Source: Nitrospirota bacterium
Lineage (GTDB): Bacteria > Nitrospirota > Nitrospiria > Nitrospirales > Nitrospiraceae
Reading direction: 5' to 3'
NCBI GenBank assembly: GCA_030682135.1
Contig: JAUXQT010000078.1
Location: 1 to 40,501, forward strand
DNA: 40,501 nucleotides
Shown here one piece after another: positions 2,560 to 40,098 of the stretch (positions are counted from its first letter, which is position 1; each line of letters begins with the position of its first letter). The notes beneath the pieces are model-generated. The model was given only the letters and a program-made list of their open reading frames with translations. It had not been told where the DNA came from and did no database searches. A program made the translations under genes and the position numbers.

Positions 2560-2567
2560 GATCACGC

Positions 2568-17463: not shown

Positions 17464-17492
17464 TTGACATTGGTGAACTATGAAGATACGAT
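17464..17492 (+). promoter_or_regulatory. Promoter and possible operator of the DUF1778-GNAT module
   Basis: TTGACA (17464-17469) and TACGAT (17487-17492) are 17 bases apart, a near-consensus sigma-70 promoter. An inverted repeat ATGTC...GACAT (17449-17470) overlaps the -35 box and is a candidate binding site for the ribbon-helix-helix antitoxin. Confidence 0.55.
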
Positions 17493-17515
17493 TTGACGTA
17501 ATGGGAGGTGGCAAC

Positions 17516-17818
17516 ATGGCAGCACAAGCCGTTCGGACTGAAAAACTGGATCTTCGACTGAGCTCCGCAGCCAAGCGGAGATTGGAAGCCGCTGCATCCG
17601 TTGCCAGTCGTTCGCTGAGCGCATTTGTCCTTGAAAGCGCGCTGTCTCAGGCCGAGCAAACGCTGGCCGATCGCCACACATTTGTACTGAGTAAAGCGAA
17701 ATGGGCTGAGTTTCAGCGGGCATTGGATGCTCCCGTTCGGTCTCTCCCTCGTCTCCAGCGTTTATTGACTGAGCCTGGATATTTTGACGCGGTTCCTGCT
17801 CCGACGGAAGAGCGGTGA
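17516..17818 (+). CDS. DUF1778-family (TacA/AtaR-like) antitoxin
   Basis: This 100-residue antitoxin is expected to bind the adjacent GNAT toxin with its C-terminal tail and the operator with its N-terminal ribbon-helix-helix. The N-terminus shows TEKLDLRLSSAAKRRLEAAA and SRSLSAFVLESALSQAE, the classic beta-helix-helix pattern, followed by the DUF1778 signature DRHTFVLSKAKWAEFQRALD. The start at 17516 is preferred over 17480: a GGGAGG site lies 8 bases upstream and the 17480 ATG falls inside the promoter. The TGA stop overlaps the GTG start of the toxin by four bases. The module is compact and intact. Confidence 0.9.
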   Translation: MAAQAVRTEKLDLRLSSAAKRRLEAAASVASRSLSAFVLESALSQAEQTLADRHTFVLSKAKWAEFQRALDAPVRSLPRLQRLLTEPGYFDAVPAPTEER

Positions 17819-18309
17819 TTCCCAGGATCGAAAAGCTTCACCCTCGTCACGCCGTTGACGCATTCGACTGCGGTAACCAAGATCTCAATCGTTTTCTGCA
17901 AAAGTATGCGCTGCCGAATCAGAGCAGCGGGGCATCAACCACCTATGTCGGGTTGGCGGATCACACGGTGATTGGCTATTACTCTCTGGCTGTGGGATCG
18001 GTGGAGTATGAACAGGTGCCAGCACGAGTCACGAAGGGACTCGCTCATCATCCCATTCCTGTCATGCTGCTCGCACGTCTCGCCGTCGACCATCAATGGC
18101 AAAAAAAAGGGGTTGGGGCAGGATTGCTGAGAGATGCCATGTTGCGGACGCTTCAAGCCGCAGACATTGTGGGAGTTCGCGCCCTCCTAGTCCATGCCAA
18201 AGATCAGCATGCCACAGGGTTCTACCAGCATTTTGACTTCATCCCGTCACCCAGCGATCCGTTACATCTGTTGATTCTGCTGAAAGATGTGAGAAAGATC
18301 GTTTCTTAA
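17815..18309 (+). CDS. GNAT-family toxin (TacT/AtaT-like acetyltransferase)
   Basis: This 164-residue GNAT protein follows the antitoxin with a GTGA overlap. In this family the enzyme acetylates the amino group of charged tRNAs and stops translation. The family opening FDCGNQDLNRFLQKYA is present, then TYVGLADHTVIGYYSLAVGS. Next come LLARLAVDHQWQKKGVGAGLL, with the acetyl-CoA pyrophosphate-binding QxxGxG/A-type loop (KKGVGAG), and GFYQHFDFIPSP with the catalytic-type Tyr. Length and domain order are normal and nothing is broken. The GTG start follows from the four-base overlap. Its exact tRNA specificity cannot be read from sequence. Confidence 0.9.
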   Translation: MIPRIEKLHPRHAVDAFDCGNQDLNRFLQKYALPNQSSGASTTYVGLADHTVIGYYSLAVGSVEYEQVPARVTKGLAHHPIPVMLLARLAVDHQWQKKGVGAGLLRDAMLRTLQAADIVGVRALLVHAKDQHATGFYQHFDFIPSPSDPLHLLILLKDVRKIVS

Positions 18310-19294: not shown

Positions 19295-19441
19295 ATGCCA
19301 TGCTCCGGATTGATCCTCGAATGGGCGAGAGAACGTCGTGGCGAAGAACAGTCCCTTCTCGCTGCTATTTTCCCAGATCAAGGCCTTCATGTTGCCGACT
19401 TTGAGCGTGTTCGCGGGTTTGTCATTCCTGGCGATTCTTAA
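19295..19441 (+). CDS. Possible 48-residue small protein or gene remnant
   Basis: An open frame from ATG 19295 reads MPCSGLILEWARERRGEEQS and continues to GFVIPGDS. The composition is protein-like and more convincing than the hydrophobic overlapping frame at 19338-19529. There is no clear ribosome site and no family is recognised. It may be a remnant of a longer gene. Confidence 0.25.
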   Translation: MPCSGLILEWARERRGEEQSLLAAIFPDQGLHVADFERVRGFVIPGDS

Positions 19442-19694: not shown

Positions 19695-20729
19695 ATGGAG
19701 CTTCGAGTGCATCAGCCTTCCGATCCTGAATCTCGTTCCAGCCCACAATCAATACTTCTTGAAGATCTCCTTCGGCTTTCCCTTGAGGTGAGAGCGGCCC
19801 ATGTCCAGCAATCTGGAGCTGTTGATCTCGATGCGACACTCCAACGTCTGCGACGTGAGGGGGTCGATATCCCTGAACGGATGGGGAACCGTCTTGCATG
19901 GGCGGTTGCCTTCAATATGGAAGGACCTCCTGATGTCGTAGTTGATGGTATAGCAGCGCCTCGTCGAGGAGCTCGAAGATACAAGGATCATTGGCCATTC
20001 ATCGCATGTTTTGCTGACATCTGGTCCCGGCTGACCAAGTCATGGATCTCATCAAACCCTGGTCATACATCAACCCTACTGGACGAACTCGGCCTCTCCG
20101 TGCTCTGCGAGCAAAAATCTGAATGGCAGGAACCATTATCTCGCCTGGTCGATGTGAAAGCGGCCGATGAGGTCTTTAAGTTCGTCTATGTCAGGAATAA
20201 GGCGAAAGTTGTGGGGCGCGTAAGAAAGGTATTTGGGGAGCGAGCCGATAGCCCGGAGGACATCGCAGACGAAGCCTGGACAGATGTGTTTCGTGACTAC
20301 TGGAGCTCCGAGGCGCGTAGAAGATTTCTTGGCACCAGTCAGATCTCAACGATGGTCTGTCAGATGGCTCTGTATAAGGCGATTGATAGGATCCGTGAGA
20401 AGGGAGCCTTTGTGACCGAAGGGGGATCAGTGGGTGATGCCGCTGACGAGCCCCGTGGTTCCGTGCTGGATAGCCTGGCTGTGTTCGATGATCCAACCGA
20501 GCATATCGCAGGGCAGCAGCTGAAGCGACGAATTCGTGAATGCATAGATCATCAGCTTCCCTTTAAGCAAGGATTGGTGGCTGCAATGGTTTGGCTGGAG
20601 GATAAATCGGCTAAAGAAGTGGCTGAGAGTCTTCTCATCAGTGAGCCGGCCGTTAGTCAGCATCTCAAAAAGGCGCGGGAAACGCTTCGGCCCTATCTGA
20701 AGATGCACGGGTTTGATCTCCCCTCATAG
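19695..20729 (+). CDS. ECF-like RNA polymerase sigma factor with N-terminal extension
   Basis: This 344-residue protein ends in the two conserved regions of an extracytoplasmic-function sigma factor. Region 2 is about residues 155-210 (EVFKFVYVRNKAKVVGRVRK, then DSPEDIADEAWTDVFRDYW), and region 4 is about residues 270-338, with ESLLISEPAVSQHLKKARET as the DNA-binding helix-turn-helix for the -35 box. Known ECF factors are about 180-200 residues, so the first ~150 residues are an extra domain of unknown role. The ATG lacks a clear ribosome site and no other in-frame start is near. The next gene, 76 bases on, encodes a membrane-anchored protein with a cytoplasmic head, the usual position for an anti-sigma factor. 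The target promoters are unknown. Confidence 0.85.
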   Translation: MELRVHQPSDPESRSSPQSILLEDLLRLSLEVRAAHVQQSGAVDLDATLQRLRREGVDIPERMGNRLAWAVAFNMEGPPDVVVDGIAAPRRGARRYKDHWPFIACFADIWSRLTKSWISSNPGHTSTLLDELGLSVLCEQKSEWQEPLSRLVDVKAADEVFKFVYVRNKAKVVGRVRKVFGERADSPEDIADEAWTDVFRDYWSSEARRRFLGTSQISTMVCQMALYKAIDRIREKGAFVTEGGSVGDAADEPRGSVLDSLAVFDDPTEHIAGQQLKRRIRECIDHQLPFKQGLVAAMVWLEDKSAKEVAESLLISEPAVSQHLKKARETLRPYLKMHGFDLPS

Positions 20730-20805
20730 AACAGGGGAACGCGAGCAAGGGTTCAGGGAGCTTAACTCCGCGGGCCTGAGATCGACTAAGAGGTAGGAAA
20801 GGCCA

Positions 20806-22716
20806 ATGCCGATCAACGACGATGACATGGAACGAGTAAAGGCCATTCGTGCCCGGGCACAGGAACGGAGCACGCAAGGCGAGCGACTGGACACTATGGC
20901 CGATGCTGAAGTCATAGCCGCACTGATCGATGGCACCGTTTCGCTCGATGAGATCGATGATGAGACACTGGAACGATGTCGTAAGACCTTCGGGGCAAGT
21001 CATATTGCGCGGTCCATTGTGATGGAGCGACGCAGGGAGGGACAAGGTGATCCGGCCCCCCTTCTGAAAATGGTGCCGGAGAGTGAGTCGACATCAGCAG
21101 TCCCGAAGGCTCCAGCGTCTCGCGGGCCATCCCAACCGGCGAGGTCCTGGTGGCGACAACATTCTCATTTGCTGGCAACGGCAGCATCCCTCGCACTGGT
21201 CTCCATGATCGTAGTCGGAGCGGGGATGCGCGGGATGGAGCCGATTCTGATCGCCATCCAACAGTATGTGTTCAATGGAGTTGAGAAAGGCCCAGGCGCA
21301 GGGAATGCGCCCCTGCGACCGAGCAAAGACTACGCGAGTGGACTGAATATTGATTTTCAATGGCCCTCCCATCCGCCGTTTGATCCTGGTGCCGTAAAAC
21401 CCTGGGGGCCGACTAAGCGTGCGCTCTCCAACGGGTTGCCGGACTTTTCGAAGGAGAGTGTGACGCTGGGAGCAGGAGGTGAAGACCAATTCACAGCCTG
21501 GCGTCTTGCAACAGTGATCATTCGGACGGAAGAAGGAGTGGGGAGCGGCACCTTCATTTCTTCGGATGGATGGCTGTTGACCACGTATCATGTCGTCGAA
21601 GGATCAGTCCAGCAGGCGTCCATGACGGGATCAGTATCGGCGGTTGAGGTCGTCGTCGGCAAAAGTGAAAATGGACGGATCACGCCGAGACCAGCGGTGA
21701 AAGCCCAAGTCTACCGGGTCGATCCCGTGCACGATATCGCCCTGCTCAAACTTGAGGCGTTGCCCGATGGCATGAAAGAAATGCCGTTTGTAACGCTGGC
21801 AGCCGATATCCGTAAGGGAGAAGAGGGTGTTGTGATCGGGGCTCAAGCCAAGGGCCAGGCTTGGTGGGTTCGAAGCGGTAATGTGTCGGGGCTCTTCGAC
21901 TTTCCAAAGAAGTCGAGTCGCAAGGTTGTGGGGAGCGCAGATACGGACAACAGCACGGAACGTACTCATGCCACCATGGTGATCACTGATATCCAGATAG
22001 CTGGTGGAGATTCCGGAGGGCCGCTTCTGAATGCGAAAGGTGAATTAATGGGTCTCACCTTCGCCCCTCCGGTGGATGGACCGGCAGGGTCTATCGGCTG
22101 GCATATCGCATTGACGCATCTGCGCGGCATCGTGGCGGATTTGCCAAGTCAGCCCGAAGCTGTGCCGTTCGATCCCTGGACGATTGGTCTCTCAAATGCC
22201 CGCTTGGGTTTACCTCAGCAAGCCGATGGTGATCGGGATGGCCGCATCGATACCCTGATCTTCCCCTACGTCGCAGATGTCACGGATAGTGCCGGCCGGA
22301 CCGCTCCACAGGCCGTCGCCTTTACCCTGTTCATGGATGTGTCGCAACGCGCCAACTCGAAGCCCAAGGCGTCGGATTTGATGCCGGCTGGGTTATGGTC
22401 GAGAGAAGGCCACGGTAGTTTTCAGTATGACGTATTCATGACCGTTCGAGTCGATGGGAAACTCGTGGTCGGATATACGAATGCCACAGGAGTTGTTGAC
22501 GAACTGCGAATCGGCTCTGCACAGACTGGCAAGATGACCGTTAAATGGCGGAGGGCAAAGCAAGGCGAGTGGTGGCCCTCGTGGCCTTCGATTGGAACCG
22601 CCTTTCTCGATCCGGCGAGGATCGGTGATGGCAAGAGAAGGCAGATCGAAGCGATCTATCAGAATCTTGTGGCTGATCAGTCGGAGAGCCAGTCACCCAA
22701 ACCCAGTACGCCATAA
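20806..22716 (+). CDS. Membrane-anchored trypsin-like serine protease with cytoplasmic N-terminal region
   Basis: This 636-residue protein has a charged, mostly helical N-terminus (1-118) containing MADAEVIAALIDGTVSLDEI. One transmembrane helix follows at about 121-141 (LLATAASLALVSMIVVGAG), then a trypsin/HtrA-type domain. The triad is visible: H262 (TTYHVVEG), D310 (DPVHDIALLKLE) and S403 (IAGGDSGGPLL). A C-terminal beta-rich domain of ~220 residues follows, including DGDRDGRIDTL, a possible calcium-binding loop. The order cytoplasmic head, one TM and periplasmic domain, right after a sigma gene, suggests an anti-sigma-like or signal-transducing role; the head lacks the HxxxCxxC zinc motif of classical anti-sigma factors, so this is inference. 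The ATG has an AGGAAAGG site. The CHAT protease gene follows. Confidence 0.85.
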   Translation: MPINDDDMERVKAIRARAQERSTQGERLDTMADAEVIAALIDGTVSLDEIDDETLERCRKTFGASHIARSIVMERRREGQGDPAPLLKMVPESESTSAVPKAPASRGPSQPARSWWRQHSHLLATAASLALVSMIVVGAGMRGMEPILIAIQQYVFNGVEKGPGAGNAPLRPSKDYASGLNIDFQWPSHPPFDPGAVKPWGPTKRALSNGLPDFSKESVTLGAGGEDQFTAWRLATVIIRTEEGVGSGTFISSDGWLLTTYHVVEGSVQQASMTGSVSAVEVVVGKSENGRITPRPAVKAQVYRVDPVHDIALLKLEALPDGMKEMPFVTLAADIRKGEEGVVIGAQAKGQAWWVRSGNVSGLFDFPKKSSRKVVGSADTDNSTERTHATMVITDIQIAGGDSGGPLLNAKGELMGLTFAPPVDGPAGSIGWHIALTHLRGIVADLPSQPEAVPFDPWTIGLSNARLGLPQQADGDRDGRIDTLIFPYVADVTDSAGRTAPQAVAFTLFMDVSQRANSKPKASDLMPAGLWSREGHGSFQYDVFMTVRVDGKLVVGYTNATGVVDELRIGSAQTGKMTVKWRRAKQGEWWPSWPSIGTAFLDPARIGDGKRRQIEAIYQNLVADQSESQSPKPSTP

Positions 22717-22915
22717 CGCCCTGACGGCGGAGCCAAGCAAGGCCCCAACAAGCTCTGATCCAGGGGAGCCGGGGGAATGAAAGCTCGTCAGTAGGCGAAC
22801 TCAAGCACATGTGGGAGTGGATGTGATGCTCTGTACTGGAGTCACTGTAGACCAAGGCCACATGCAGATTCTGAAGTCTCCCGATCATATCGCTAGGCAG
22901 AATGAGGCCGTGAGG

Positions 22916-25900
22916 ATGCCACGGACGAAGTCCATTGTTGTGTGCTGGCTCTTTGGGTTGGTCATTGGTATGCCAGGAGTGGGGCTGCAGCCAGTAATGG
23001 CGTCGGAGGTTTCTCACTTACCAGCAGCAGATGAATCTACAAAGGTGTCAGCTGTGTTGGTTTCGAGTTTGTCGGCGGGGGCGAACGTGCGAGTTGAAGA
23101 GGCTAGTGGCACCAAGATTCCACAATTGCCCGAAGAGGTAGCCGCAAAAGTGGGGAAAGTCGAGAAAGTTATTGATGTGCTCATGCACGTCAAGCCAGAG
23201 TTATTACCCGATCTTCAAATAGAGTTAGAGAAATTAGTAGAAATGGCTGAGTGGGTTCTCAGTGTCCGTCGGCACAATCAGGAAGAACAGTGGTGGGAGA
23301 CGATTGATGCGCGGCAACGGCTGGCAGATCTCCATGAGTGGGTCAAGTTGAGCTCTGCAGAGCGAGCAGAGTGGGCACGGGCGACATCTTTGAATAGCCA
23401 AGTACAAGAGCACTATCGAATGGGCCATTATACGGAGGCTCTACCGCTGGCGCAGCAGGTTTTGGTGATCCGGGAACAGGTACTGGGCCTTGCACATCCG
23501 TTAACTGCCGCGAGCCTAAATGACGTGGGGCTGTTGCACGAAGCGCAAGGGCACCATGACCAGGCTATTTCTCTGCATGAACGGGCATTGACGATTAGGG
23601 AACAGGTCCTGGGGACGATGCATCCTAGTACCGCTACAAGTCTACACAATTTGGCAATTGTTTACTGGGGGCAGGGTCAATATGCTCAGGCCCAACCACT
23701 CTATGAACGGGCGTTAGCAATTACTGAGCGGGCACAGGGGGCAACGCATCTTGAGTTTGCAATGACCTTGGATAACCTGGCGGTGCTTTATAAGGACCAG
23801 GGGAAGTATGCGCAGGCGTTGCCACTGTACGAGCAAGCGTTGGCGATTCGGGAGCAGGCGTTGGGGGCAGCGCATCAAGAAACGGCAATAAGTCTAAACA
23901 ACCTGGGGTTGTTGTATATGGCCCAGGGAGCCTATGCCAAGGCGTTGCCGTTGTATGAGCGGGCGCTGAGAATCATGGAGGAGGCTTTCGTCTCTGCGCA
24001 TCCGAGCGTGGCAACGTCCCTGAATAACCTGGCGTTGTTGTATGAGGCCCAGGGGGCCTATGCCAAGGCGTTACCGTTGTATGAGCGGGCGCTGAGAATC
24101 ACGGAGGAGGTCTTGGGGCCTGACCACCCCTTGACCGCTACGGTGTTGACGAACCTGGGCATACTGCGGTCGCTCTTCCAACCCGATGCGCAAGCCGCTC
24201 AATTCCTCTTCCGGGCTGTGCAGAGTAAATGGCGGTATCTGACCGATAGCTTTCCAACCCTCACGGCATCCCAACAGCAGCAGTTCCTGAAGAAGGAAGG
24301 GTTGGCCGAAAGCGGGTATGTGTGGCACCTGCTGGCGAAGGTACCGAGCTTGGATCGGGCGCTGGGGTATCAGGGCACGGTGCTCAGTAAGCACCTGCTG
24401 GCTGAAGCAATGCGGCAAGAGAACGGGGCGTTTCAACGGGTCTTGGCCGAGGCCCCGGCCGAGTGGCGAATTCTGTGGCGTGAGCGGGAGTCGCTCCGGC
24501 GTGACTATGCTACCCGCTCATTGCAGGAGTTGCCTGACAGCAAGTCTTTTCTTCATGACGAACCGCGCTTGGTGGCGGTCTCCTCCACGCGCGAGCTGGC
24601 GACACGTATAGAACAACTAGAGCAACACTTGCGGCGAGAATATCCACCCTATGTCCAGGCGGCGCGTCTCCAAGAGGTTACGGTCGAGCAGATCATCCAA
24701 AAGCTGCGGCCTGGCCATGCGCTGCTTGAGTATGTGCAGTTTCATCCCTATGACCCACAGACGAAACGATTAGCTGAGACCTGGCATTACGGCGTCTATG
24801 TCCTGCAGGGCGGTCCGGTTCCCGTCGTGGCGGTGGACTTAGGCGACGCCGCGCCGATCGATGCGGCCATCCGGCAGTTCCAGTCTGGCATGCAGGCGGC
24901 CATCGAGCGATTCAAAAGCGTGACGCCAAGTCGGGGGCAGGTCCGAAAGTCCGAAGCCACCCTCGCGGAGGCCTCATCAGCCCTGCGCAAGTTGGTCTGG
25001 CAGCCACTGGAGTCCCATCTCACGGGTGTGACGCGCGTCTACGTGGCGCCCGATGGGCTCCTGAGCCTGCTTCCATTTGAAGTGCTTGCCCATCAGACGA
25101 AAAAGGGCGGGTGGCAGTATCTGGCGGAAGAACGAGAGCTGCTCTATCTGAACACCGGGCGGGATCTCGCCCGCGTGGGCCTGACCACCGGGGCCGTCTC
25201 AGCATCCCCAGCCGCTCGCACCGCCGTGCTCGTCGGCAATCCCGCGTTCCAGGCCACACCCCGTGAGGTGGCCCGCGTGGTTGCCGGAATCAGCCCCTCA
25301 GGGACCATGGTCGCGCAATCCAAACAGGGAATTTCAGCCCCGACCCTAGGGGCCGTGACGGGGTCGCCGCGCCTGGAGCTTCCGCGCACGTGGCTGCCAG
25401 TGGAGGCGCTGGATGGGCTCGTGACGCGCGCCGAGACGCAATTGAAACTGGCCGGTTGGTCTGTGACGCGGGTGTGGCATGAGCAGGCCGTGGAAGAGGC
25501 CGTGCTCCGGCTTGAGGCGCCACGGATTCTTCAGTTTGCCACGCATGGCTATCTGCTCGATCGCCCGAAGACCGATGCAAGTGGATGGGACAACCCGCTC
25601 TTGCGCTCCATGCTCCTGATGACCGGTGTCAATCACGCTGATCCGAAGCAGGCTGTTTTCTATCGAGTCGGAAAGGATTTGCTGTCGGACACCGAGGCCC
25701 GCCAGCGGGGGCTCACGCCGGAGGCGCAACAACAGGCTCGCGTGGAGGTGGGCGACGGGGTACTGACGGCTTACGAAGTGACAGGGATGAATCTCCAAGG
25801 AACCGAACTCGTGAACCTGACCGCCTGTGAAACCGGGCAGGGGGAAGTGACCCCTGAGGGTGTTGCGGGGCTGCGACAGGCCTTCTTATTGGCCGGTGCA

Positions 25901-26260
25901 CGGGCGCTGACGATGAGCATGTGGGAAGTACCGGCCAAAGAGACCACGCAGCAGATCAGCGACTTCTATCAGCGCTGGCTGGGGGCCGAGAAGGGGAAGA
26001 AAAATAAGTCTCCGATGACCCGCTATGGGGCCTTTCGCCAGACCCAACAAGCGGCCCTTGCGAAGACCCGCAAGCAGTTCGAGGGAGCCGGTCATCCGTT
26101 CTACTGGGCCGGCGTCATCTACCTCGGTGACCCAGGCGATCTGCTGGCCTACCCGGATCAGGCTTCGAGTGCCACGTCAGCCGCCAAAATAAAAAAGATT
26201 GAGGAGCTTAACTCACCCAGGGGGCGCGAGACAAAGAGGAAGAACGGGTTAGATGAGTGA
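22916..26260 (+). CDS. Exported TPR-CHAT (caspase-like) protease
   Basis: This ~1114-residue protein has a signal-like N-terminus (IVVCWLFGLVIGMPGVG). A conserved EQWWETIDARQRLADL segment comes next, then about six 42-residue TPR units of the kinesin-light-chain type (for example SLNNLALLYEAQGAYAKALP). The C-terminal CHAT domain is a caspase-fold cysteine protease: H877 in LQFATHGYLLD and C971 in NLTACETGQGEV form the catalytic dyad, 94 residues apart. The end reads GHPFYWAGVIYLGDP. CHAT proteases are activated by partners and cleave specific proteins, as in Craspase. ATG 22916 fits the signal peptide, with TGAGG upstream; an upstream GTG at 22811 adds 35 unlikely residues. It lies about 200 bases after the trypsin gene on the same strand. 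Confidence 0.88.
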   Translation: MPRTKSIVVCWLFGLVIGMPGVGLQPVMASEVSHLPAADESTKVSAVLVSSLSAGANVRVEEASGTKIPQLPEEVAAKVGKVEKVIDVLMHVKPELLPDLQIELEKLVEMAEWVLSVRRHNQEEQWWETIDARQRLADLHEWVKLSSAERAEWARATSLNSQVQEHYRMGHYTEALPLAQQVLVIREQVLGLAHPLTAASLNDVGLLHEAQGHHDQAISLHERALTIREQVLGTMHPSTATSLHNLAIVYWGQGQYAQAQPLYERALAITERAQGATHLEFAMTLDNLAVLYKDQGKYAQALPLYEQALAIREQALGAAHQETAISLNNLGLLYMAQGAYAKALPLYERALRIMEEAFVSAHPSVATSLNNLALLYEAQGAYAKALPLYERALRITEEVLGPDHPLTATVLTNLGILRSLFQPDAQAAQFLFRAVQSKWRYLTDSFPTLTASQQQQFLKKEGLAESGYVWHLLAKVPSLDRALGYQGTVLSKHLLAEAMRQENGAFQRVLAEAPAEWRILWRERESLRRDYATRSLQELPDSKSFLHDEPRLVAVSSTRELATRIEQLEQHLRREYPPYVQAARLQEVTVEQIIQKLRPGHALLEYVQFHPYDPQTKRLAETWHYGVYVLQGGPVPVVAVDLGDAAPIDAAIRQFQSGMQAAIERFKSVTPSRGQVRKSEATLAEASSALRKLVWQPLESHLTGVTRVYVAPDGLLSLLPFEVLAHQTKKGGWQYLAEERELLYLNTGRDLARVGLTTGAVSASPAARTAVLVGNPAFQATPREVARVVAGISPSGTMVAQSKQGISAPTLGAVTGSPRLELPRTWLPVEALDGLVTRAETQLKLAGWSVTRVWHEQAVEEAVLRLEAPRILQFATHGYLLDRPKTDASGWDNPLLRSMLLMTGVNHADPKQAVFYRVGKDLLSDTEARQRGLTPEAQQQARVEVGDGVLTAYEVTGMNLQGTELVNLTACETGQGEVTPEGVAGLRQAFLLAGARALTMSMWEVPAKETTQQISDFYQRWLGAEKGKKNKSPMTRYGAFRQTQQAALAKTRKQFEGAGHPFYWAGVIYLGDPGDLLAYPDQASSATSAAKIKKIEELNSPRGRETKRKNGLDE

Positions 26261-26520: not shown

Positions 26521-28443
26521 GTGAAAAGCCAACGTATTCGAAGTGTCACTGCAAGTGTCCTCTGTCTCTGTGCGTTGATCTCATTGTCCGGATGTAGTCT
26601 GGATTACGAGGGAGACAGAAGACGGGAACTCCAGAGAGCTCAAGAAGAGCAGGCTCGTCAAGTTCAAGCGCAATATCAATTGTATCAAGACGAAAAAGCA
26701 AATAGAGAAGCACAATTAAGGCCGCAAAAGCTGGTTGCTGGTTCCGTTTATGAGCTGGCTGAAAAAGCGATGAGTGAATTCAAGTACCGGGACGACATTG
26801 TGATGGTGATGTTTCTGACGCAAGGTGACGCGGGGGCCACACTCATGAGAGTGAAAGAGGCCATGCACACCTCTGACGAACATTCGGTCGTGAACCCGCA
26901 CTGGGTGGTTGGATTTCCAGGCGAAGCCGTAGACGTGCAGACCAATTGCGGCGTTGTTGTCGGTCACTGGTATTCCAGTGAAGGGTATCCTTCTCGCGCG
27001 CCATGGGAAAGAATTATGGACGGAGTATTGGCGGGGGAAACGACGGCAGCCACCTACCTCTACTCGCATAAAGGAGAATTCATGTTGACCGAAGGCGGGC
27101 AGCTTGAGATGGATGTGCTGCAAAGCGTCTGCTTTTCTGAACGGACGTTGAGCGCGCCCTATTTCAATGCGTTTGGCGCCCCCGCCGGAAAGAATCGTCC
27201 GACAATCTCCCGGACGACGCAGCAGCCAATGCCAGCGCGATTCACTCAAATCTATACGCCGGCCATGGACCTTGCTGCAAAGGAATTAAAGGGCGACACG
27301 TTCGTGGGAAGCGCGTGCAGCAAAACATTGGATCTTGAGATCAGCGTGACCGATGTCGCTCTTAATAATCCCAAGGAACAGAATAATCCGGTATTCCTGG
27401 TTCGTGGATCCATGAAAGTGGCTCGTGGGTCAAAGGTCTCCTCGCAGGTTGCAGTGATGGGAGCGATCTCCCGAGCGCACGGTGTTTTGAACCTTGTCGA
27501 TCAGAAAGAGGGTTCGAAGCCACTCCCTGGTAAGGTCCATCTCTCTCTTTTTAGAGATGATGACGGCGCAGGATGGGAAGGGATGATTGAGGGTGTCGGG
27601 GAGAAAGGCTGTGATGACGTTCGACTTACAAGCAAGAACGGAAAGAAGTTAATCGCATTTCCCAAGATGACGGGCGATGTCGCCTTCAACCATTCCAATC
27701 CGAAGATGGCACCTGCGTTGAGGCTGTATCCGCTGTATTGGCTCCAAGTGGCAGAAGCTCGTGGCAGTGTCGATGCGACCTATTACCTTGGCGAGCTATA
27801 CGAACAACGCGGAGAATATTTGCGGGCGCTTCAATATTACCAGGCAGCCACTACCACATACGACGATGCCAGAGCTCAGGCGGCATTGGGACGCATGTAC
27901 GAAAAGGGCAAGGGAGTCACGGCGGATAGCGCGAAAGCCCAGCAGTGGAGCAGCTTGGCAAGAAACACATGGCTGAACGCTGCAAGGGTGTGTCGGTCGC
28001 CTCAATTAAGAGACATTATCCGACGGCGCGCAACGCAGTCCTATAGACAGAATAAGAAGACGATTGAGGCCGGTAGGGCTGCGACTGGTGTGAGTGCCGA
28101 TATGGGAGCGGTCACAATAAGCAAAGTTACCCCGGAACAGGTTCTTTCGCTGGCCAAGCCGTTCCTATGCCAGGCTAAAGGGGGATTCGAGAATCCAAAC
28201 GTTCAGATGGAGATCCCAGCATCAGAGGTCACCGTCTGGAGGGACCAATATGGCCGCGAAACGTATACCGACAACTCGATGGCCCGAGCCGCGTCTGTAT
28301 TGACGCAATTATATGGGAATCATGCCGCCAGAAATACGGCTCGCTACTACACGTTTCTCATTGATCCACTAGACAAGGGCCGCTACAAGGTTTTGTACCC
28401 AGGAGCCTCCGGCATTGAATCAGAGGTGATGGATTTGAATTAA
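26521..28443 (+). CDS. Lipoprotein with C-terminal Sel1/TPR repeats
   Basis: This 640-residue protein starts with GTG, preceded by an AAAGAGG site. It has a lipoprotein signal with LSGC and the lipidated Cys at position 25. A charged coiled-coil-like stretch follows (EGDRRRELQRAQEEQARQ). The centre (residues ~60-390) is a long region I do not recognise. At ~395-480 come Sel1/TPR units (ATYYLGELYEQRGEYLRALQ and AQAALGRMYEKGKGVTADSA), then another unknown region with few repeats. Position and orientation make it the fourth gene of the sigma-trypsin-CHAT series, about 260 bases after the CHAT stop (that gap holds nothing recognisable). A substrate or sensor role is possible but unproven. Confidence 0.75.
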   Translation: MKSQRIRSVTASVLCLCALISLSGCSLDYEGDRRRELQRAQEEQARQVQAQYQLYQDEKANREAQLRPQKLVAGSVYELAEKAMSEFKYRDDIVMVMFLTQGDAGATLMRVKEAMHTSDEHSVVNPHWVVGFPGEAVDVQTNCGVVVGHWYSSEGYPSRAPWERIMDGVLAGETTAATYLYSHKGEFMLTEGGQLEMDVLQSVCFSERTLSAPYFNAFGAPAGKNRPTISRTTQQPMPARFTQIYTPAMDLAAKELKGDTFVGSACSKTLDLEISVTDVALNNPKEQNNPVFLVRGSMKVARGSKVSSQVAVMGAISRAHGVLNLVDQKEGSKPLPGKVHLSLFRDDDGAGWEGMIEGVGEKGCDDVRLTSKNGKKLIAFPKMTGDVAFNHSNPKMAPALRLYPLYWLQVAEARGSVDATYYLGELYEQRGEYLRALQYYQAATTTYDDARAQAALGRMYEKGKGVTADSAKAQQWSSLARNTWLNAARVCRSPQLRDIIRRRATQSYRQNKKTIEAGRAATGVSADMGAVTISKVTPEQVLSLAKPFLCQAKGGFENPNVQMEIPASEVTVWRDQYGRETYTDNSMARAASVLTQLYGNHAARNTARYYTFLIDPLDKGRYKVLYPGASGIESEVMDLN

Positions 28444-29915: not shown

Positions 29916-30043
29916 CCAGGTGTCCACGGAATTGGGGGAAGGTCATCGAGTATCTCGTTCTCAGTTTATCATGATCTCTTGTGAAAGAAGCTTCTGGGGA
30001 GAGTGGCGCGATGAAGTCTAGTGTTCAAAGCGGAGAAGGATGG

Positions 30044-32239
30044 GTGAAAAACATATTGTTAATACTTAGTATTTTATTGTTATTCATGGCTAGTCCTTGT
30101 TTTGCTGGTTTGAATGACGGAGAGGCTGCTCTTGAGTCTGGCGACTATGCGACGGCGTTACAATGGTTTAGACCATTAGCTGACCAAGGGGATGCAGACG
30201 CCCAGTACAACCTTGGGTTTCTATATGCTACGGGTCGGGGGGTGTCGCAGGACGAGGCGCAGGCGGCAGGGTGGTACCGGAAAGCCGCTGACCAGGGGCA
30301 GGCCACTGCCCAGAACAACCTTGGGGTTCTATATGCCACGGGTCGGGGAGTGCCACAGGACTATGCCCAGGCTAAGGTGTGGTACCGGAAAGCTGCTGAC
30401 CAGGGGCAGGCCACTGCCCAGTACAACCTCGGGGTTCTATATGCCACGGGTCGGGGAGTGCCGCAGGACGAGGCGCAGGCGGCAAGGTGGTACTGGAAAG
30501 CCGCTGATCAGGGGCAGGCCACTGCCCAGTACAACCTCGGGCTTCTATATGCCACGGGTCGGGGAGTGCTACAGGACGAGGCGCAGGCGGCAGGGTGGTA
30601 CCGGAAAGCCGCTGACCAGGGGGATGCAGACGCTCAGTACAACCTCGGGCTTCTATATGCCACGGGTCGGGGAGTACCACAGGACTATGCCCAGGCTAAG
30701 GTGTGGTACCGGAAAGCCGCTGACCAGGGGCACACCATTGCACAGTCTAGCCTTAGCAGCGCTCAAGAAACCAATACGGTTGCTGTTGTAGAAGCCTTGG
30801 ACGAGGATCTATTTACCATACACGCTATTCAATATTTATATGACACGTGGCCAGACGATTTCCAAAATACTAGCAACCTCGTTCAGCAACTACAGCAGGT
30901 TGACAGGAGGGTATCTGCTTTAAAAGCTGGGGCTGAAATGCGGAAAGCGGACAGCAAAGTAATGCAATTGATCGACGACTGTCGTGCGCTGATCGTTGCT
31001 TACGAAACATACCTTCATCAGGTCGGAGCAATTGATAATGCTAGCAGAACTGCGAAGAGTTCGGATGGAATCTCTACATTAAGTGCATCACTGAAAAACG
31101 GTGTAGAAGGAGCCTCATCCGCTTATAAAAGAGGTTATGACGATCAACAATCAGCTGGAATCGGCGTGGCATTCGGTTTGATTACGGTATTCTACGAAGG
31201 GTATTCAAAAGAGCAGCAACGAAATGAGGAGCAACGGTCTCGGCTCAAAGAAGCATCAGCCACCTTGAAGCGCATTTCTCAAGATATTGGCGATCGATCC
31301 AAGTTGCGGGTTGAGTCGCTGACATTGGATAGGCGATGGGCTAAGGGTGAAGCGGGGCTTGACGGATTCACTGTACAGAAAATGAGCGAAGCTCTAGCGC
31401 GTAGGCCGCGTGATCTGTTCTTGCGCGTACGAAATGCGGCACTGCGCGATGGAAGCCAATCATCCATCGCCATACTCGGCGATGCAGAAACCTGCGTTAA
31501 TGCCTATTTACAAGTACCCGCCACTCCGGCGTTTGATGAATTCCGCCGTCTGTTTCTTGCGCATGCCGCAGAAATTGCTGCTGAGGGTGCCATTAAGGGT
31601 TTGCAAGATTCTTCTTATTCCAGTGCTCCGTCATTGCATGGGAAACGGGCTGTGGAAATTGTGCAACTATATCTTTCCCTGCAAGGTGCAGATATGGCGT
31701 TTGGATATCTGCACCTTGCCCGGTCAATGGCGGCGACAGGCAATATCAATGGTGCCATTGTAGCGGCAAACAAAGTCCCAGAATCGCACTGGACTGCAGC
31801 CTATCGATTTATTTATGCCAGGCTAATGAGCATAAGCGGCGATACGGATCGGGCACTGAGTTGGCTCCGTTCTGCGTTTGCACATGGGCACACAGGTGTT
31901 GGTTATGCAAAGGCAAGTCCAGATTTTAAGAATGTTCGTGCTAAGCTGTCGAAGCAATTCGAAGAGATTACAAAGGTCAATTGGAAGTGGATAATTAATT
32001 GGGGTTTTCGCATCAACAATGACACCATTACACTCAGGAATAATTCCGCGTTTCCTATTACGAATGTCATATTGGGGGTGACTGTTTCGTCCTCAGGCTA
32101 TCCCGACTGGGAAGGTGAATTCAAAACAGAGTACGTTCCAGGAGGAGGTTCTGTTACATGGAAGCTCGATGTTTCTGGAATTACTTCTCGCGGCTGGGAC
32201 TACAAAGGGTATGGCAATATAGCTTGCGATCAGTGTTGA
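30044..32239 (+). CDS. Exported Sel1-repeat protein
   Basis: From GTG 30044 this is a 731-residue protein with a classic signal peptide (KNILLILSILLLFMASPCFA). Five near-identical 36-residue Sel1 repeats follow (YNLGxLYATGRGVPQDxAQA), encoded by 108-bp units at 30191-30730, plus flanking partial units. Sel1 repeats form superhelical protein-binding surfaces. The remaining ~480 residues hold a helical middle and an unrecognised C-terminal segment ending in NDTITLRNNSAFPITNVILG, beta-rich in appearance. The 30044 start is preferred because GGAG lies 8 bases upstream and gives a clean signal peptide; ATG 30011 and GTG 29981 are alternatives. Its DNA after the repeats is more AT-rich than the left part of the window. 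Function unknown. Confidence 0.8.
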   Translation: MKNILLILSILLLFMASPCFAGLNDGEAALESGDYATALQWFRPLADQGDADAQYNLGFLYATGRGVSQDEAQAAGWYRKAADQGQATAQNNLGVLYATGRGVPQDYAQAKVWYRKAADQGQATAQYNLGVLYATGRGVPQDEAQAARWYWKAADQGQATAQYNLGLLYATGRGVLQDEAQAAGWYRKAADQGDADAQYNLGLLYATGRGVPQDYAQAKVWYRKAADQGHTIAQSSLSSAQETNTVAVVEALDEDLFTIHAIQYLYDTWPDDFQNTSNLVQQLQQVDRRVSALKAGAEMRKADSKVMQLIDDCRALIVAYETYLHQVGAIDNASRTAKSSDGISTLSASLKNGVEGASSAYKRGYDDQQSAGIGVAFGLITVFYEGYSKEQQRNEEQRSRLKEASATLKRISQDIGDRSKLRVESLTLDRRWAKGEAGLDGFTVQKMSEALARRPRDLFLRVRNAALRDGSQSSIAILGDAETCVNAYLQVPATPAFDEFRRLFLAHAAEIAAEGAIKGLQDSSYSSAPSLHGKRAVEIVQLYLSLQGADMAFGYLHLARSMAATGNINGAIVAANKVPESHWTAAYRFIYARLMSISGDTDRALSWLRSAFAHGHTGVGYAKASPDFKNVRAKLSKQFEEITKVNWKWIINWGFRINNDTITLRNNSAFPITNVILGVTVSSSGYPDWEGEFKTEYVPGGGSVTWKLDVSGITSRGWDYKGYGNIACDQC
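30191..30730 (+). repeat. Five 108-bp tandem coding repeats (Sel1 units)
   Basis: Units start at 30191, 30299, 30407, 30515 and 30623 with an exact 108-base period. They share long identical stretches such as CTATATGCCACGGGTCGGGG. Nucleotide identity is much higher than protein conservation requires, pointing to recent duplication or gene conversion. The unit number may vary between strains. Confidence 0.85.
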
Positions 32240-32355
32240 AGTGAAGGGTCTGATAACAGCCTAACTGTCCGGTAGGGAAACCCGTGCAGCATAACCACTG
32301 ATGTTTGTCCAATTCGGAGACGGCTCTTAACTATGACTGATAGCTTGTTAGTTGG

Positions 32356-32645
32356 CTAGTTCCACCGACGTTGTGAGGCAAGCTCATTTGGGGTCATGTG
32401 TCTGAGTGAGCTGTGTGGGCGATAGTGATTGTAATCCATCAGCCAGGCTTAGATCATTGCTTGGACCTCACCGAGTGGGGTGAACTGATGCAGGTTCAAC
32501 CATTCGTCGCGTAGTCATTCTTAAACGAGTCTATGAAGGCACTTTCCACAGTTTGCCTGGTCGATGGAAATCGAGTTGGAGGCCCCGCCGATACGTAAGC
32601 TCCCCTGTCAACGAGACAAAGCCACCGGTGAACTTCTGGCCTCAA
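32356..32645 (-). pseudogene. IS3-family OrfB C-terminal relic
   Basis: On the minus strand 32645-32540 reads GQKFTGGFVS...LTYRRGLQLDFHRPGK. After frame changes it reads TVESAFIDSFKN and then LNLHQFTPLGEVQAMI, stop, AWLMDYNHYRPHSSLRHMTP, NELASQRRWN, stop. This is the end of an IS3-type transposase (DFIRPGKPxENAFIESFNG...YNxxRPHSSLGxLTPxEF). It differs from the intact IS at 28696, so it is from another element. It has at least one frameshift and two nonsense codons. The rest of 32240-33038 shows no gene; one minus-strand stretch near 32900 reads TDADYKYTLVIQESWKDSLE but is too short to assign. Confidence 0.75.
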
Positions 32646-33038
32646 GCTGGGCCTGTTAGGGGGCGGTCATCTAGGGATGCTGGCGATGGAGGTCAGCGGT
32701 CAATGCCAAGACTTCTGACGGTCGGACTCCGCCGGGTGCGGCAATGGCAGGAGGACACGACGATGTCAGAACCTTCTTGTTGCAAGTTAGCGCGAAACGA
32801 TGAGGCCTCGAGATGCCGGTTACTCATCTTGCCGATCAGGGCGGCCACCGCTCCAGTGAGTCCTTCCACGACTCTTGGATGACCAGGGTGTACTTGTAGT
32901 CTGCGTCGGTCTGGCAACGGAGTAGGACCCTAGCAAGAGATGTTCATATCAGTTCACAAGAGTTTACAGCCAGAGAGTCTGAGGGTGCCTCAGGTCGATA
33001 TCAATAACCCTCTCACGATTGCGTTTAGGACGTCTGTC

Positions 33039-36000
33039 ATGAACTCTGTTCGTCAATTTTTACCGCCTGTAGTGTTTGCCTCTGCAGTATTGTTTGCAGG
33101 TGGCGCATTAGCTCAATCGCAGCCAGCCTCGCCACTTTTGAAAGGATCGACTGGATCTCCTAAAGCGACAATAGAGGGCTCAGGTAACGCTCCGCGATCA
33201 GCGGAAGAAGATCTTGCCGAAGCGAAGTCGGAATGGATGAATGCCTTGCGCGCGCGTGACCCAAAGGCAATGAATAAGGCGATGGAGAGGTTGCAGGAGA
33301 GCACGAAAAAAGCACAGATGTCTGAGCGCGCAGCTAGTGAAGGTAGAACGGCACAAAAAAACGCTGCCTCCACAATGCCGCCGCAATCTACCTCCACTGT
33401 CGGTGTGCAGCCAGGCGTAAAAGAAATCGGCGGGAAAGTAGAGCCAGCGGATCCGATCGCTCAATATCATATGGGGGAGATGTATTCCAAAGGCCAGGGC
33501 GTGCCTGTCGACCACTGGAAATCCATGGACTGGTATCGTAAATCTGCTGACCAAGGATTTGCTCCCGCCCAGGCCAAGCTTGGTGCTTTGTACGAGAACG
33601 GCAAGGGGCCGGGGAAGGACCCCTGGGTGGCTCAAAGATGGTATCGGAAATCGGCTGACCAAGGATTTGCTCCTGCGCAGGTTAACCTCGGTGTTTTGTA
33701 CGAGAATGGCACGGGGATGCCGCGAAGCTATGTGGAGGCAATGGTCTGGTACCGCAAAGCCGCTGAGCAAGGCTCTGTCGACGCGCAATACCGCATTGGC
33801 CATCTGTACCACACCGGTGATGTCCCTTTGCAAAACTCCATGAAGATCCCGAAAGGTGTTGCCCAAGACTATGCTCAGGCCGAAGTCTGGTATCGCAAAG
33901 CCGCCGACCAAGGGCAGGCAGACGCCCAGTTTAATCTTGGTCTCCTATATGATAATGGCCAAGGTGTTGCACGGGACTACGCCCAGACTCTAGCGTGGTA
34001 TCGCAAAGCCGCCGACCAAGGGCAGGCGGACGCCCAGTTTAGTCTTGGTGTGCTCTATGACAACGGCCAAGGCGTTGCCCAGGACTCTGCCCAGGCTCTA
34101 GTTTGGTATCGCAAAGCCGCCGACCAGAACAATCCTGCAGCAAAAAATGCTCTCGGTACCCTGTATGAGAAAGGCCAGGGGTTGCCACAAAGCTACTGGC
34201 AGGCCTTCGTCGTGTATCAACAAGCGGCCGTCAAGGGATTCGCTCCAGCCCAGACCAATCTCGGTACCCTCTATGAAAAAGGTCAGGGGATACGTCAAGA
34301 CTATGGAGAGGCCGTCAGGTGGTACGCGGAGGCGGCCAACCAAGGGTTTGCTCTGGCGCAAACTCGATTAGGCGTCATGAGTGAGAATGGCACGGGGGGA
34401 AAGCGGAATAATGAAGCGGCAATGAACTTGTACCGCAAAGCCGCCGATCAGGGATTTGCTCCGGCACAGATTCGTGTCGGTGCGATGTACGAGAACGGCA
34501 AGGTTCGGCCGAAAGACCTCACCCGCTGGGGTACGTCTGAGAACGGCACGAGTCCGAACCAAGACTATGCGCAGGCGATGGTTTGGTATCGTAAGGCCGC
34601 CGAGCAAGGTTCTGTCGATGCGCAGTATCACATTGGCCATCTGTACCACACTGGCGATGCGCCTTCTCAAAACCCCGTGAAGATCATGAAAGGCCTAGCT
34701 CAAGACTACGCCCAAGCTGAAGCCTGGTATCGCAAAGCCGCCGACCAAGGGCAGGCGGACGCGCAGTTTAGTCTGGGTGTGCTCTATGCCAACGGCCAAG
34801 GGGTCACGCAGGACTCTGCCAAGGCTCTAGTCTGGTATCGAAAGGCTGCTGAGCAAGGGCAGGCAAATGCCCTACTTTATCTCGGTGTGCTTCATGACAC
34901 CGGCCAAGGGGGCGGACAGGATTCAGCCCAGACTCTAGCGTGGTATCGCAAAGCCGCCGACCAAGGGCAGGCGGACGCCCAGTTTAACCTCGGTCTCCGG
35001 TATAGCACCGGCCAAGGCGTCTCACAGGACTACGCCCAAGCTACAACCTGGTATCGCAAAGCCGCCGATCAAAGTCACGCCGATGCGCAGTTCAGCCTTG
35101 GTCTTCTCTATAGCACTGGCCAAGGCGTCCCCCAAGACACTGCCCAAGCTGCAACCTGGTATCGAAAATCCGCCAGCCAGCCGAAAACCAATGACCAGTA
35201 CAACTCCGGCCGTTCAGATGCGAATGGTCAAGGTGTGCAACGAGACTCTAATCAAGCTGAAGCCTGGTATCGCAAAGTCGTCGACCAAGGGCCATCTGAC
35301 GCCCAGTTTAACCTTGGTCTCCGGTATGCCAACGGCCAAGGTCTCCCTCAAGACGCTACTCAGGCCGCTGCTTGGTTTCGTAAAGCTGCTGATCATGGAT
35401 TGGCTGCTGCCCAGTTTAGTCTCGGCCTCCGATATAGCACCGGCCAGGGTGTGCAGCAAGACTACACGCAGGCTGCAGCCTGGTATCGTAAGGCTGCTGA
35501 GCAGGGGCAGGCCGATGCCCAGTTTAGTCTTGGCCTTCTGTATAGCAACGGCGAAGGTGTCCCTCAAGACCACGTACAGGCCGCCGCTTGGTATCGCAAA
35601 GCCGCCGACCAGCTGAGTGAAATTGCCCGATTCCCCTCCGGTGTCGAATATGCTCGGGGGGAAGGCATGCATCCAGACTCTGCCCGAGCCGAGGCTTGGT
35701 ATCGCAAAGCTGCCGATCAAGGCCAGGCAGACGCCCAGTTCAGCCTTGGACTCCGGTATGCAGACGGCAAAGGTGTCCCGCAGGACTTTGAGCAAGCCGT
35801 CGTCTGGTATCGCAACGCTGCTCGGCAGGGGTTGGTCAGTGCTCAATACAATCTTGGTCGTCTCTATTACACCGGCCAGGGTGTGCCGCAGGACTTTGCG
35901 CAGGCTGCTATCTGGTATCGGAAAGCTGCAGAACAAGGATTTGTCAAGGCTCAAAACATTCTTGCGTTCCTCTACTACAACGGCAAAGGCGTCTTGCAGG

Positions 36001-36422
36001 ATTATGCGCAGGCTGCGGCTTGGTTTCGTCAAGCTGCCAAACAGGGGGATGCTGATGCTCAGAGCAATCTGGGTGCGTTGTATGCCAATGGGCAGGGTGT
36101 GCCGAAAGACTATGGGCAGGCTATGGCCTGGCTTCGCAAGGCTGCCGATCAAGGAAATGAAACCGCACAGGCTGATCTCAGTGAACTGTCATCCAGGCCC
36201 ACGCGCGATGATGATGCGACAATCAGTATCCTGAAAATTGGATTAGGGATAGCGGCCCTGGCGGCAGTAAGTATGGTGTTTAATGGTAGTAGCAGAGATG
36301 AGGACCAAGGCGATAATTCCATTGAAAACGAGGAGAGGAAGCTAAGAGAGGAAATATTTTGGGAGCGTCAGAGACAAAAAACTCTTGAAAGTCAATTAGG
36401 CGTGAGAGATGGCAAAAATTAG
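33039..36422 (+). CDS. Large exported Sel1-repeat protein with C-terminal membrane segment
   Basis: This 1127-residue protein has a signal peptide (PPVVFASAVLFAGGALAQ) from ATG 33039; a frame start at 32940 adds 33 unlikely residues. After a helical charged region (residues ~40-130) come about 24 Sel1 repeats of about 36 residues (YRKAADQGQADAQFSLGVLY type). A block around HIGHLYHTGD occurs twice, 837 bases apart, showing a large internal duplication. The C-terminus has a membrane helix (ISILKIGLGIAALAAVSMVF) followed by a charged coiled-coil tail. The likely topology is an extended periplasmic superhelix anchored at its C-terminus. It probably binds proteins; no catalytic domain is seen. It stands downstream of the IS3 relic, not in an operon with the earlier Sel1 gene. 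Confidence 0.82.
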   Translation: MNSVRQFLPPVVFASAVLFAGGALAQSQPASPLLKGSTGSPKATIEGSGNAPRSAEEDLAEAKSEWMNALRARDPKAMNKAMERLQESTKKAQMSERAASEGRTAQKNAASTMPPQSTSTVGVQPGVKEIGGKVEPADPIAQYHMGEMYSKGQGVPVDHWKSMDWYRKSADQGFAPAQAKLGALYENGKGPGKDPWVAQRWYRKSADQGFAPAQVNLGVLYENGTGMPRSYVEAMVWYRKAAEQGSVDAQYRIGHLYHTGDVPLQNSMKIPKGVAQDYAQAEVWYRKAADQGQADAQFNLGLLYDNGQGVARDYAQTLAWYRKAADQGQADAQFSLGVLYDNGQGVAQDSAQALVWYRKAADQNNPAAKNALGTLYEKGQGLPQSYWQAFVVYQQAAVKGFAPAQTNLGTLYEKGQGIRQDYGEAVRWYAEAANQGFALAQTRLGVMSENGTGGKRNNEAAMNLYRKAADQGFAPAQIRVGAMYENGKVRPKDLTRWGTSENGTSPNQDYAQAMVWYRKAAEQGSVDAQYHIGHLYHTGDAPSQNPVKIMKGLAQDYAQAEAWYRKAADQGQADAQFSLGVLYANGQGVTQDSAKALVWYRKAAEQGQANALLYLGVLHDTGQGGGQDSAQTLAWYRKAADQGQADAQFNLGLRYSTGQGVSQDYAQATTWYRKAADQSHADAQFSLGLLYSTGQGVPQDTAQAATWYRKSASQPKTNDQYNSGRSDANGQGVQRDSNQAEAWYRKVVDQGPSDAQFNLGLRYANGQGLPQDATQAAAWFRKAADHGLAAAQFSLGLRYSTGQGVQQDYTQAAAWYRKAAEQGQADAQFSLGLLYSNGEGVPQDHVQAAAWYRKAADQLSEIARFPSGVEYARGEGMHPDSARAEAWYRKAADQGQADAQFSLGLRYADGKGVPQDFEQAVVWYRNAARQGLVSAQYNLGRLYYTGQGVPQDFAQAAIWYRKAAEQGFVKAQNILAFLYYNGKGVLQDYAQAAAWFRQAAKQGDADAQSNLGALYANGQGVPKDYGQAMAWLRKAADQGNETAQADLSELSSRPTRDDDATISILKIGLGIAALAAVSMVFNGSSRDEDQGDNSIENEERKLREEIFWERQRQKTLESQLGVRDGKN

Positions 36423-38674: not shown

Positions 38675-39045
38675 CAGCTGTGTCCTCTGTTGTGTGAAGG
38701 CTATCCTCATGGTGTTCGAAAAATGTGTCATCGCCATAGCATCTATGGTTAGAGATGATGCGCTCAAATATAAGGTATGAGATCAAAATTGTCCAAGGTG
38801 GCATGCTCGCTAGATTTCACACCATCGCAAGCAGCGCGTGCGATGCATATTTGTATGCTACTGGCTCTTTCTTGCTCTTTCAGCCTGGCGATTTACGAAT
38901 GGTGACTCGGTAGGCATGGTAAGTGGTCTCGATAAAGTAGGGCAGGGAGGTTAATTCCTCTGTTCCTGGCAAGACTGATTCTGTGAGCGGGATATAGAGG
39001 TTACAGTGATGGCGGACTATGCCATGGGTGTTGCGGAGTGAACGG

Positions 39046-39906: not shown

Positions 39907-40098
39907 GGGGAATGGGGAGATTTGTTCAGGGACGGCGCGGCGAGGTGTCGTCGATACAGTTGGATGTGAGTCCTCTACTGGGCACTCACAATATATTCGA
40001 TGATGGAGCTTAAGTCGTGGGGTGGTTTCTAGACAGATGGGTAGATGGGAAACAGTCTTGCAAGTTTATCCTAAGCGACACCCACGTAGGAGGCATAA

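Follow-up and report, generated by a model that had tools for sequence, protein, structure and literature searches.

The 636-residue protein encoded directly downstream of an ECF-type sigma factor gene is probably a one-TM, anti-sigma-like sensor with swappable ectodomains that works in the manner of RsgI proteins and would, through that sigma factor, control promoters of the form CTTAACT-N15-CGAC. Both genes lie in the window, the whole stretch of DNA that was analysed. It is one complete contig (C45, 40501 bases), and the genome it belongs to, 3.75 Mb in size, is divided among 113 contigs; the features of the two genes are collected in Table 1. In a search of the open-licence literature neither this cassette nor any trypsin-bearing anti-sigma factor of Nitrospira was described.

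Table 1. Features of the sigma factor and sensor cassette and of the genes that follow it, in window coordinates.
Feature	Position	Strand	Basis
ECF-type sigma factor of 344 aa, core beginning near residue 160	19695..20729	+	TIGR02937, Sigma70_r4
N-terminal extension of sigma, ~155-159 aa, motif SVLCEQxxxWQ, conserved with the cassette	19695..20171	+	four relatives aligned
CTTAACT-N15-CGACTAAGAG, promoter-like motif that the neighbouring sigma is predicted to read	20761..20792	+	relatives' weight matrix, 35.0 bits
636-aa protein: N module, TM helix, linker, trypsin-type domain, C-terminal region	20806..22716	+	ATG start, ORF list, Pfam
N module, predicted cytoplasmic, residues 1-118, proposed sigma-binding part	20806..21159	+	five-copy alignment, model
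TM helix, residues 122-140	21169..21225	+	hydropathy
Trypsin-type (S1C-like) domain, residues 240-446	21523..22143	+	Pfam, NCBIfam, triad residues
H262 codon	21589..21591	+	trypsin-type domain
D310 codon	21733..21735	+	trypsin-type domain
S403 codon	22012..22014	+	trypsin-type domain
C-terminal region, residues 447-636 (~190 aa), conserved, separate	22144..22713	+	relatives' alignment
Exported TPR-CHAT protein, 1149 aa, next gene, 94 bases downstream of the 636-aa ORF	22811..26260	+	Pfam
CTTAACT-N15-GAGACAAAGAG, second and variant form of the promoter-like motif, where the TPR-CHAT gene ends	26207..26238	+	weight matrix, 24.5 bits
Lipoprotein gene, possible regulon member	26521..28443	+	start 280 bases from second motif

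An earlier, sequence-only reading of this DNA had described a protein with one TM helix and an outer trypsin-type protease, lacking the zinc anti-sigma motif and placed beside an ECF sigma gene, and in these respects it was borne out. It had passed over the N-terminal extension of the sigma factor, the separate C-terminal region, the promoter-like motif between the two genes and the TPR-CHAT gene behind them. A single strongly hydrophobic stretch (Kyte-Doolittle 19-mer mean 2.11) follows the residues SWWRQHSH, and a linker of ~85 residues separates this TM helix from the trypsin-type domain C-terminal to it. The domain matches the Pfam families Trypsin_2 (residues 246-417, E 1.3e-20) and, over the same region, Trypsin (240-425, E 4.3e-14), both above the curated cut-offs, and the complete triad of H262 (in LTTYHVV), D310 (in HDIALLK) and S403 (in GDSGGPLL) was located exactly where that reading had put it. 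With a single Cys (58) and a single His (66), residues 1-118 have no HxxxCxxC motif, and the gene directly upstream scores over the sigma70-ECF cut-off. Given that sigma partner and the type of outer domain, the N-terminus would lie inside the cell. HtrA-type matches were obtained both among PDB sequences and in NCBIfam, where the best score was 52.8 bits against an HtrA equivalog cut-off of 450; a PDZ domain was not found with Pfam. The C-terminal region, which matched no family above threshold, includes a DGDRDGRID sequence resembling a calcium-binding loop, and may contain such a loop. A full-length structure model built from three sequences had a pLDDT of 32.6 and was set aside.

The sigma factor matches TIGR02937 (sigma70-ECF) over residues 164-333 at 59.2 bits, against a cut-off of 42.9, and since the match begins only at residue 164, the protein carries an N-terminal extension of ~155 residues. 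Sigma70_r4 (region 4) is above the Pfam cut-off, and region 2 is absent from the Pfam matches. The extension matched no Pfam family and had no relatives among viral contigs; a sample of 395 genomes from the phylum had it in 2, and it was found at three loci in a collection of genome contigs, all of them Nitrospira metagenome assemblies corresponding to the copies in genomes G088 and G130, and across both sets it was met only in Nitrospira.

Structure prediction of residues 1-118 alone, a check suggested with the sequence-only reading, gave four helices but did not settle the fold, with a mean pLDDT of 54.9 (blocks of 61-77 for residues 1-70). The helices, of low-to-moderate confidence, span residues 5-23, 29-42, 52-62 and 64-78 and are followed by a disordered linker. 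Foldseek returned no match to this model below E 0.001, VIA-align on 99 chains gave no Z of at least 5, a result that is uninformative either way, and a profile of the N module found nothing among PDB sequences below E 0.1. No anti-sigma family in Pfam or NCBIfam matched any of five N modules at E up to 10, and the RsgI_N domain of Pfam had no match in the 636-residue protein. DUF3379 came up on three of the five modules at E 0.09-0.2 but was confined to the TM helix, and was rejected. The anti-sigma role assigned at the outset therefore finds no family match to support it, but it is supported indirectly: the N module travels with the sigma factor whatever the outer domain, and an ECF-type motif precedes the gene in five of five copies. 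Together these findings suggest that the N module may bind the sigma factor.

The cassette is rare: those five copies were found at E <1e-50 in four of 175 family genomes, namely the window's genome (G000), G069, G088 (two copies) and G130, and the sigma factor, searched at E up to 1e-12, is present in the same four. Left out before counting were marginal N-module matches in G052, G151, G337, G315 and G211 (E 0.001-0.008, short and partial) and matches to the protease domain only in G100 and G101; the comparison is one of five copies, most of them from metagenome assemblies. The full 636-residue protein had no relatives in the collection of genome contigs, and a plasmid search returned general trypsin-type matches only. 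In all five copies the N module adjoins this type of sigma factor, truncated in the G069 locus (L018), and it was found only beside it.

It is the outer part that changes, being a trypsin domain with intact triad in two copies, a trypsin domain with lost catalytic residues in two, and SEL1 repeats in one. The first G088 copy (L016) shares 53% identity with the full length of the window protein and has an intact triad; the second (L017) has the catalytic His replaced by Gln and the Ser by Pro; the G069 copy (L018) has the same His to Gln change with Ser kept, plus an insertion and a frame break. The G130 copy (L019), whose sigma factor shows 38% identity, has the same N module and TM helix with SEL1 repeats outside instead of trypsin. 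Membrane anti-sigma factors with exchangeable sensor domains are laid out in this way, the sigma factor and N module staying paired while the outer part varies.

Several features of the surroundings of these copies were also recorded. The G069 copy is decayed (L018 11245-10601 and 9990-9740): the sigma factor there is reduced to its last ~128 residues, the insertion lies before the trypsin domain, and the frame break is near the end of that domain. Conjugation genes, for a MobA/VirD2-type relaxase and a CagE/TrbE/VirB-type ATPase, lie a few kb from two cassettes (L016 6935-7534 and L017 6715-9210), and the cassette may therefore travel on conjugative elements. About 6 kb from the SEL1-type cassette, L019 748-2049 encodes a TPR protein that resembles a lipoprotein and includes a caspase (Peptidase_C14) domain; the remaining cassettes are accompanied by TPR-CHAT proteins, which are caspase-like too.

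With the outer part catalytically dead or replaced in relatives, it looks more like an exchangeable sensor than like a protease that frees the sigma factor. The trypsin regions of L017 and L018 are 91% identical with a dN/dS of 0.22 (NG86), and the corresponding ratios are 0.19 for the C-terminal region and 0.29 for the N module; the low ratios and the common His to Gln change indicate that the fold appears to be kept by selection without catalysis, parallel loss being possible. The proposal that the anti-sigma factor is fused to its own protease is consequently not supported as a general release step, with catalytic residues lost in two of the four trypsin-bearing copies and SEL1 repeats in the fifth, but self-release could still apply to the window protein and L016, which keep the triad, even though the proposed design can work without it. 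The trypsin regions of these two are 63% identical with a dN/dS of 0.12 at a dS near saturation, which together with the intact triad suggests that catalysis matters in them.

In one alternative the trypsin domain itself acts as the site-1 protease: once activated, it would sever its own stalk or that of a neighbour in the membrane, so that sensor, anchor and release protease are joined in one chain. The shared triad of H262, D310 and S403 and the linker between TM helix and protease agree with it, as does HtrAw, a membrane-anchored HtrA-like protease reported to process its own N-terminal anchor intermolecularly when given substrate (PMC5359297). However, half of the trypsin-bearing copies have lost catalytic residues and are nevertheless under purifying selection, and L019 has no protease at all, and this alternative is judged unlikely. 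Its fullest version, of equally doubtful standing, would have the outer domain of the triad copies sense substrate as HtrA proteins do, become active and cut its own or a neighbour's stalk, with an M50 protease finishing the release, while in the sister cassettes the built-in protease would have died and the device been rewired to site-1 proteolysis from outside. One family would then display both the built-in and the outside state of site-1 proteolysis, and the output would be exported TPR-CHAT proteins and lipoproteins, transcribed from a promoter not recognised before.

In a second alternative, rated as quite unlikely, the protein is an S1C protease that is anchored in the membrane, serves the quality control of the envelope and is no more than a target of the sigma factor, its N module serving as anchor or adaptor for another cytoplasmic partner. 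A promoter motif of its own, as targets have, would suit such a protease, as would the HtrA-type matches in NCBIfam and among PDB sequences and the lack of Pfam and NCBIfam anti-sigma matches to the N module. It sits poorly with the retention of the N module without a protease in L019 and with a dead one in L017, with the occurrence of that module only beside this sigma factor, and with the failure to find a PDZ domain in Pfam searches.

The promoter assignment comes from comparison of the intergenic regions between the sigma and N-module genes, in which CTTAACT-N15-CGAC(W)(R)AGAG, a motif of ECF-promoter type, precedes the N-module gene in five of five copies at constant spacing. ECF promoters are described as having a hallmark AAC at -35 and CGT at -10 (PMC8103513), and all five upstream regions have AAC at -35 and a CG-type -10 at constant spacing. 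The shorter form CTTAAC-N16-CGAC stands between the two genes, and only G130 (L019) has a second one upstream of the sigma gene, an arrangement that counts against the proposed reading. A CTTAAC-N15-CGAC at 19437 in the window, likewise ahead of the sigma gene, was excluded from the count for its incorrect spacing. A weight matrix made from ten non-redundant sites of relatives, with no window site included, picks out two window positions, 20761 (35.0 bits) and 26207 (24.5 bits), the best of 60 shuffles reaching 17.7. The matrix is imperfect, as in leave-one-out its weakest training sites scored 14.4 and 16.6, below that highest shuffle maximum. A further window site, at 40009, was rejected as chance (9.6 bits; core 14.2 against a null top of 14.7).

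Among 23 genomes, exact CTTAACT-N15-CGAC occurs at 19 sites in the 4 carriers of the cassette (1, 6, 8 and 4) and at 7 in the 19 non-carriers. The extended form CGAC[AT][AG]A[GT][AG] fits 14 of the 19 carrier sites and none of the 7 others, figures that are descriptive because the form was read off carrier sites. A strict, no-mismatch pattern has 11 sites in the carriers and none in the 19 non-carriers, and with one mismatch the numbers become 17 and 5; in the window's genome the strict pattern occurs at 20761 and 26207 only. The pattern isolating these two sites was loosened after 26207 was known, and the independent evidence for 26207 is the matrix made without window sites. A wide regulon, which was expected in the window's genome, was not found there: TTAAC-N16-CGACTAA with one mismatch gave 4 matches, against 14 for a backward control.

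In the carriers the sites shortly precede genes, mostly for exported proteins or lipoproteins, apart from three exceptions in coding DNA, L051, L053 and L061, which are inside or at the end of reading frames and were left out as promoters; L069 and L074 (a Hint gene) narrowly fail to fit the extended form. Of the six G069 sites, four or five, depending on whether the one at the cassette is counted, fall within 535-571 kb of one contig, with the cassette at 570 kb, and four G088 sites share one 31-kb contig; most sites in these two genomes start exported-protein or lipoprotein genes, in one cluster. The genes behind these sites include one for a DUF2167 protein and one for a PT-HINT protein, as well as a run of four genes of which the last encodes a TPR-CHAT protein. 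Related DUF2167 genes are present in 43 of 172 genomes, and when such loci were scored on both strands (n=20) the two in carriers reached 33.6 and 32.7 bits, and none of the 18 others exceeded 5.9.

The adjacent sigma factor would be the one that reads the CTTAACT-N15-CGAC motif, and the position of the motif before the N-module gene fits feedback. The motif sites of G069 are intact though its sigma factor is truncated, which points either to recent loss or to another factor that reads them. That the motif belongs to another regulator or sigma factor altogether, the cassette sigma having other targets, is very unlikely: persistence of the G069 sites and the presence of only two strong sites in the window's genome favour it, but extended sites are confined to carriers (4 carriers against 19 non-carriers), the site at the N-module gene has ECF-promoter form in five of five copies, and the related DUF2167 genes of non-carriers have no sites (18 of 18 loci).

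The TPR-CHAT protein encoded next in the window (CHAT, E 1.2e-46 in Pfam) has a hydrophobic stretch near residue 41, and its relatives, with 53-57% identity over about 950-1050 residues, are encoded in the G069 and G088 clusters that carry the motif. Elsewhere in the window are an exported TPR protein of 295 residues without CHAT (39019-39906), 41-51% identical to the N-terminal part of TPR-CHAT proteins, and a MORN-repeat lipoprotein (37199-38767) with weak relatives in the same G069 and G088 clusters. Two large exported SEL1-repeat proteins (752 and 1160 residues; 29981-36422) share up to 54% identity with the SEL1 outer domain of the G130 cassette. The window also encodes a type IIB DNA topoisomerase, with genes for both of its subunits (Topo VI B and A; 499-3674), and a toxin-antitoxin pair consisting of a TacA-like antitoxin followed by a GNAT acetyltransferase (17480-18309).

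In the mechanism that these observations suggest, the sigma gene and the downstream 636-residue frame would form one signalling cassette, in which the cytoplasmic N module holds the sigma factor and the single TM helix passes the signal inwards. The outer part would be the exchangeable sensor, here an S1C/trypsin-type fold with the C-terminal region and elsewhere the same fold in dead form or SEL1 repeats. Binding of a ligand, or of misfolded or foreign protein, to the outer domain may make the protein accessible to housekeeping proteases that would cleave it in successive steps, with an RseP-like M50 protease cutting at site 2 and releasing the sigma factor. M50 proteases are present in G000, G088 and G130 and also in all 14 control genomes, so that their presence lends weak support. 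Free sigma factor could then transcribe from CTTAACT-N15-CGAC promoters. Its targets would be its own N-module gene, which would give negative feedback, together with the TPR-CHAT gene behind it and other genes close by whose products are exported.

If the sensor interpretation is right, the predicted promoter would provide a reporter for the pathway and tie the cassette to exported TPR-CHAT proteins, on whose regulation in such bacteria the open-licence literature searched had no coverage. Since one and the same cassette occurs with an outer protease that looks active, with a dead one and with none, the role of protease activity in release is directly testable.

The sigma-E pathway uses the membrane anti-sigma factor RseA, the S1C protease DegS, a separate protein with a PDZ domain, and the M50 protease RseP. 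The cassette resembles it in the proposed anti-sigma module in the membrane, the S1C domain and the M50 proteases of the window's genome, but its S1C-type domain is in the same chain as that module and lacks a PDZ domain. Measured against HtrA and DegS themselves, the trypsin-type domain has the His-Asp-Ser triad, and neither a C-terminal PDZ domain nor an equivalog-level score. The fold of class I anti-sigma factors (ASDI) is a three-helix bundle plus a fourth helix, binding sigma2 and sigma4. The small N-terminal module before the TM helix, predicted to be helical, recalls this class, as does the ECF gene adjoining in all five copies (with the sigma truncated in L018); none of the five N modules matched an anti-sigma domain model in Pfam or NCBIfam. 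About 44% of the ASDI set is reported to lack the zinc motif (PMC7406223).

HtrAw of Brevibacillus sp. WF146 likewise has a TM anchor followed by a trypsin-type domain, and is described as freeing itself by intermolecular autoprocessing; it differs in having a PDZ domain, and its abstract mentions no sigma partner for it (PMC5359297). Extra N-terminal domains are reported on ECF sigma factors of Planctomycetes (PMC8103513), a general feature that the Nitrospira sigma factor shares, with an extension that no Pfam family matches. RsgI proteins are described as single-TM anti-sigma-I factors whose outer sensor domains differ between members, and RsgI9 of Clostridium thermocellum has an S1C peptidase-like domain reported to bind polysaccharide (PMC12203970). 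A protease-like ectodomain on an anti-sigma factor is therefore not unprecedented. RsgI9 and the Nitrospira cassette have in common a single TM helix, a protease-type outer domain and variable ectodomains. In contrast to RsgI proteins, defined by RsgI_N and a SigI partner, the Nitrospira protein has no RsgI_N match and is paired with a sigma factor over the sigma70-ECF cut-off that carries an N-terminal extension; no autocleaving periplasmic domain was recognised in it, and phylum and regulon are different. With neither an ASDI nor an RsgI model matched, the protein is placed not in these families but as working like them. If that placement is right, Nitrospira, with its ECF-type sigma factor, would be a second, unrelated lineage beside RsgI9 in which an anti-sigma-like protein carries a protease-type outer part.
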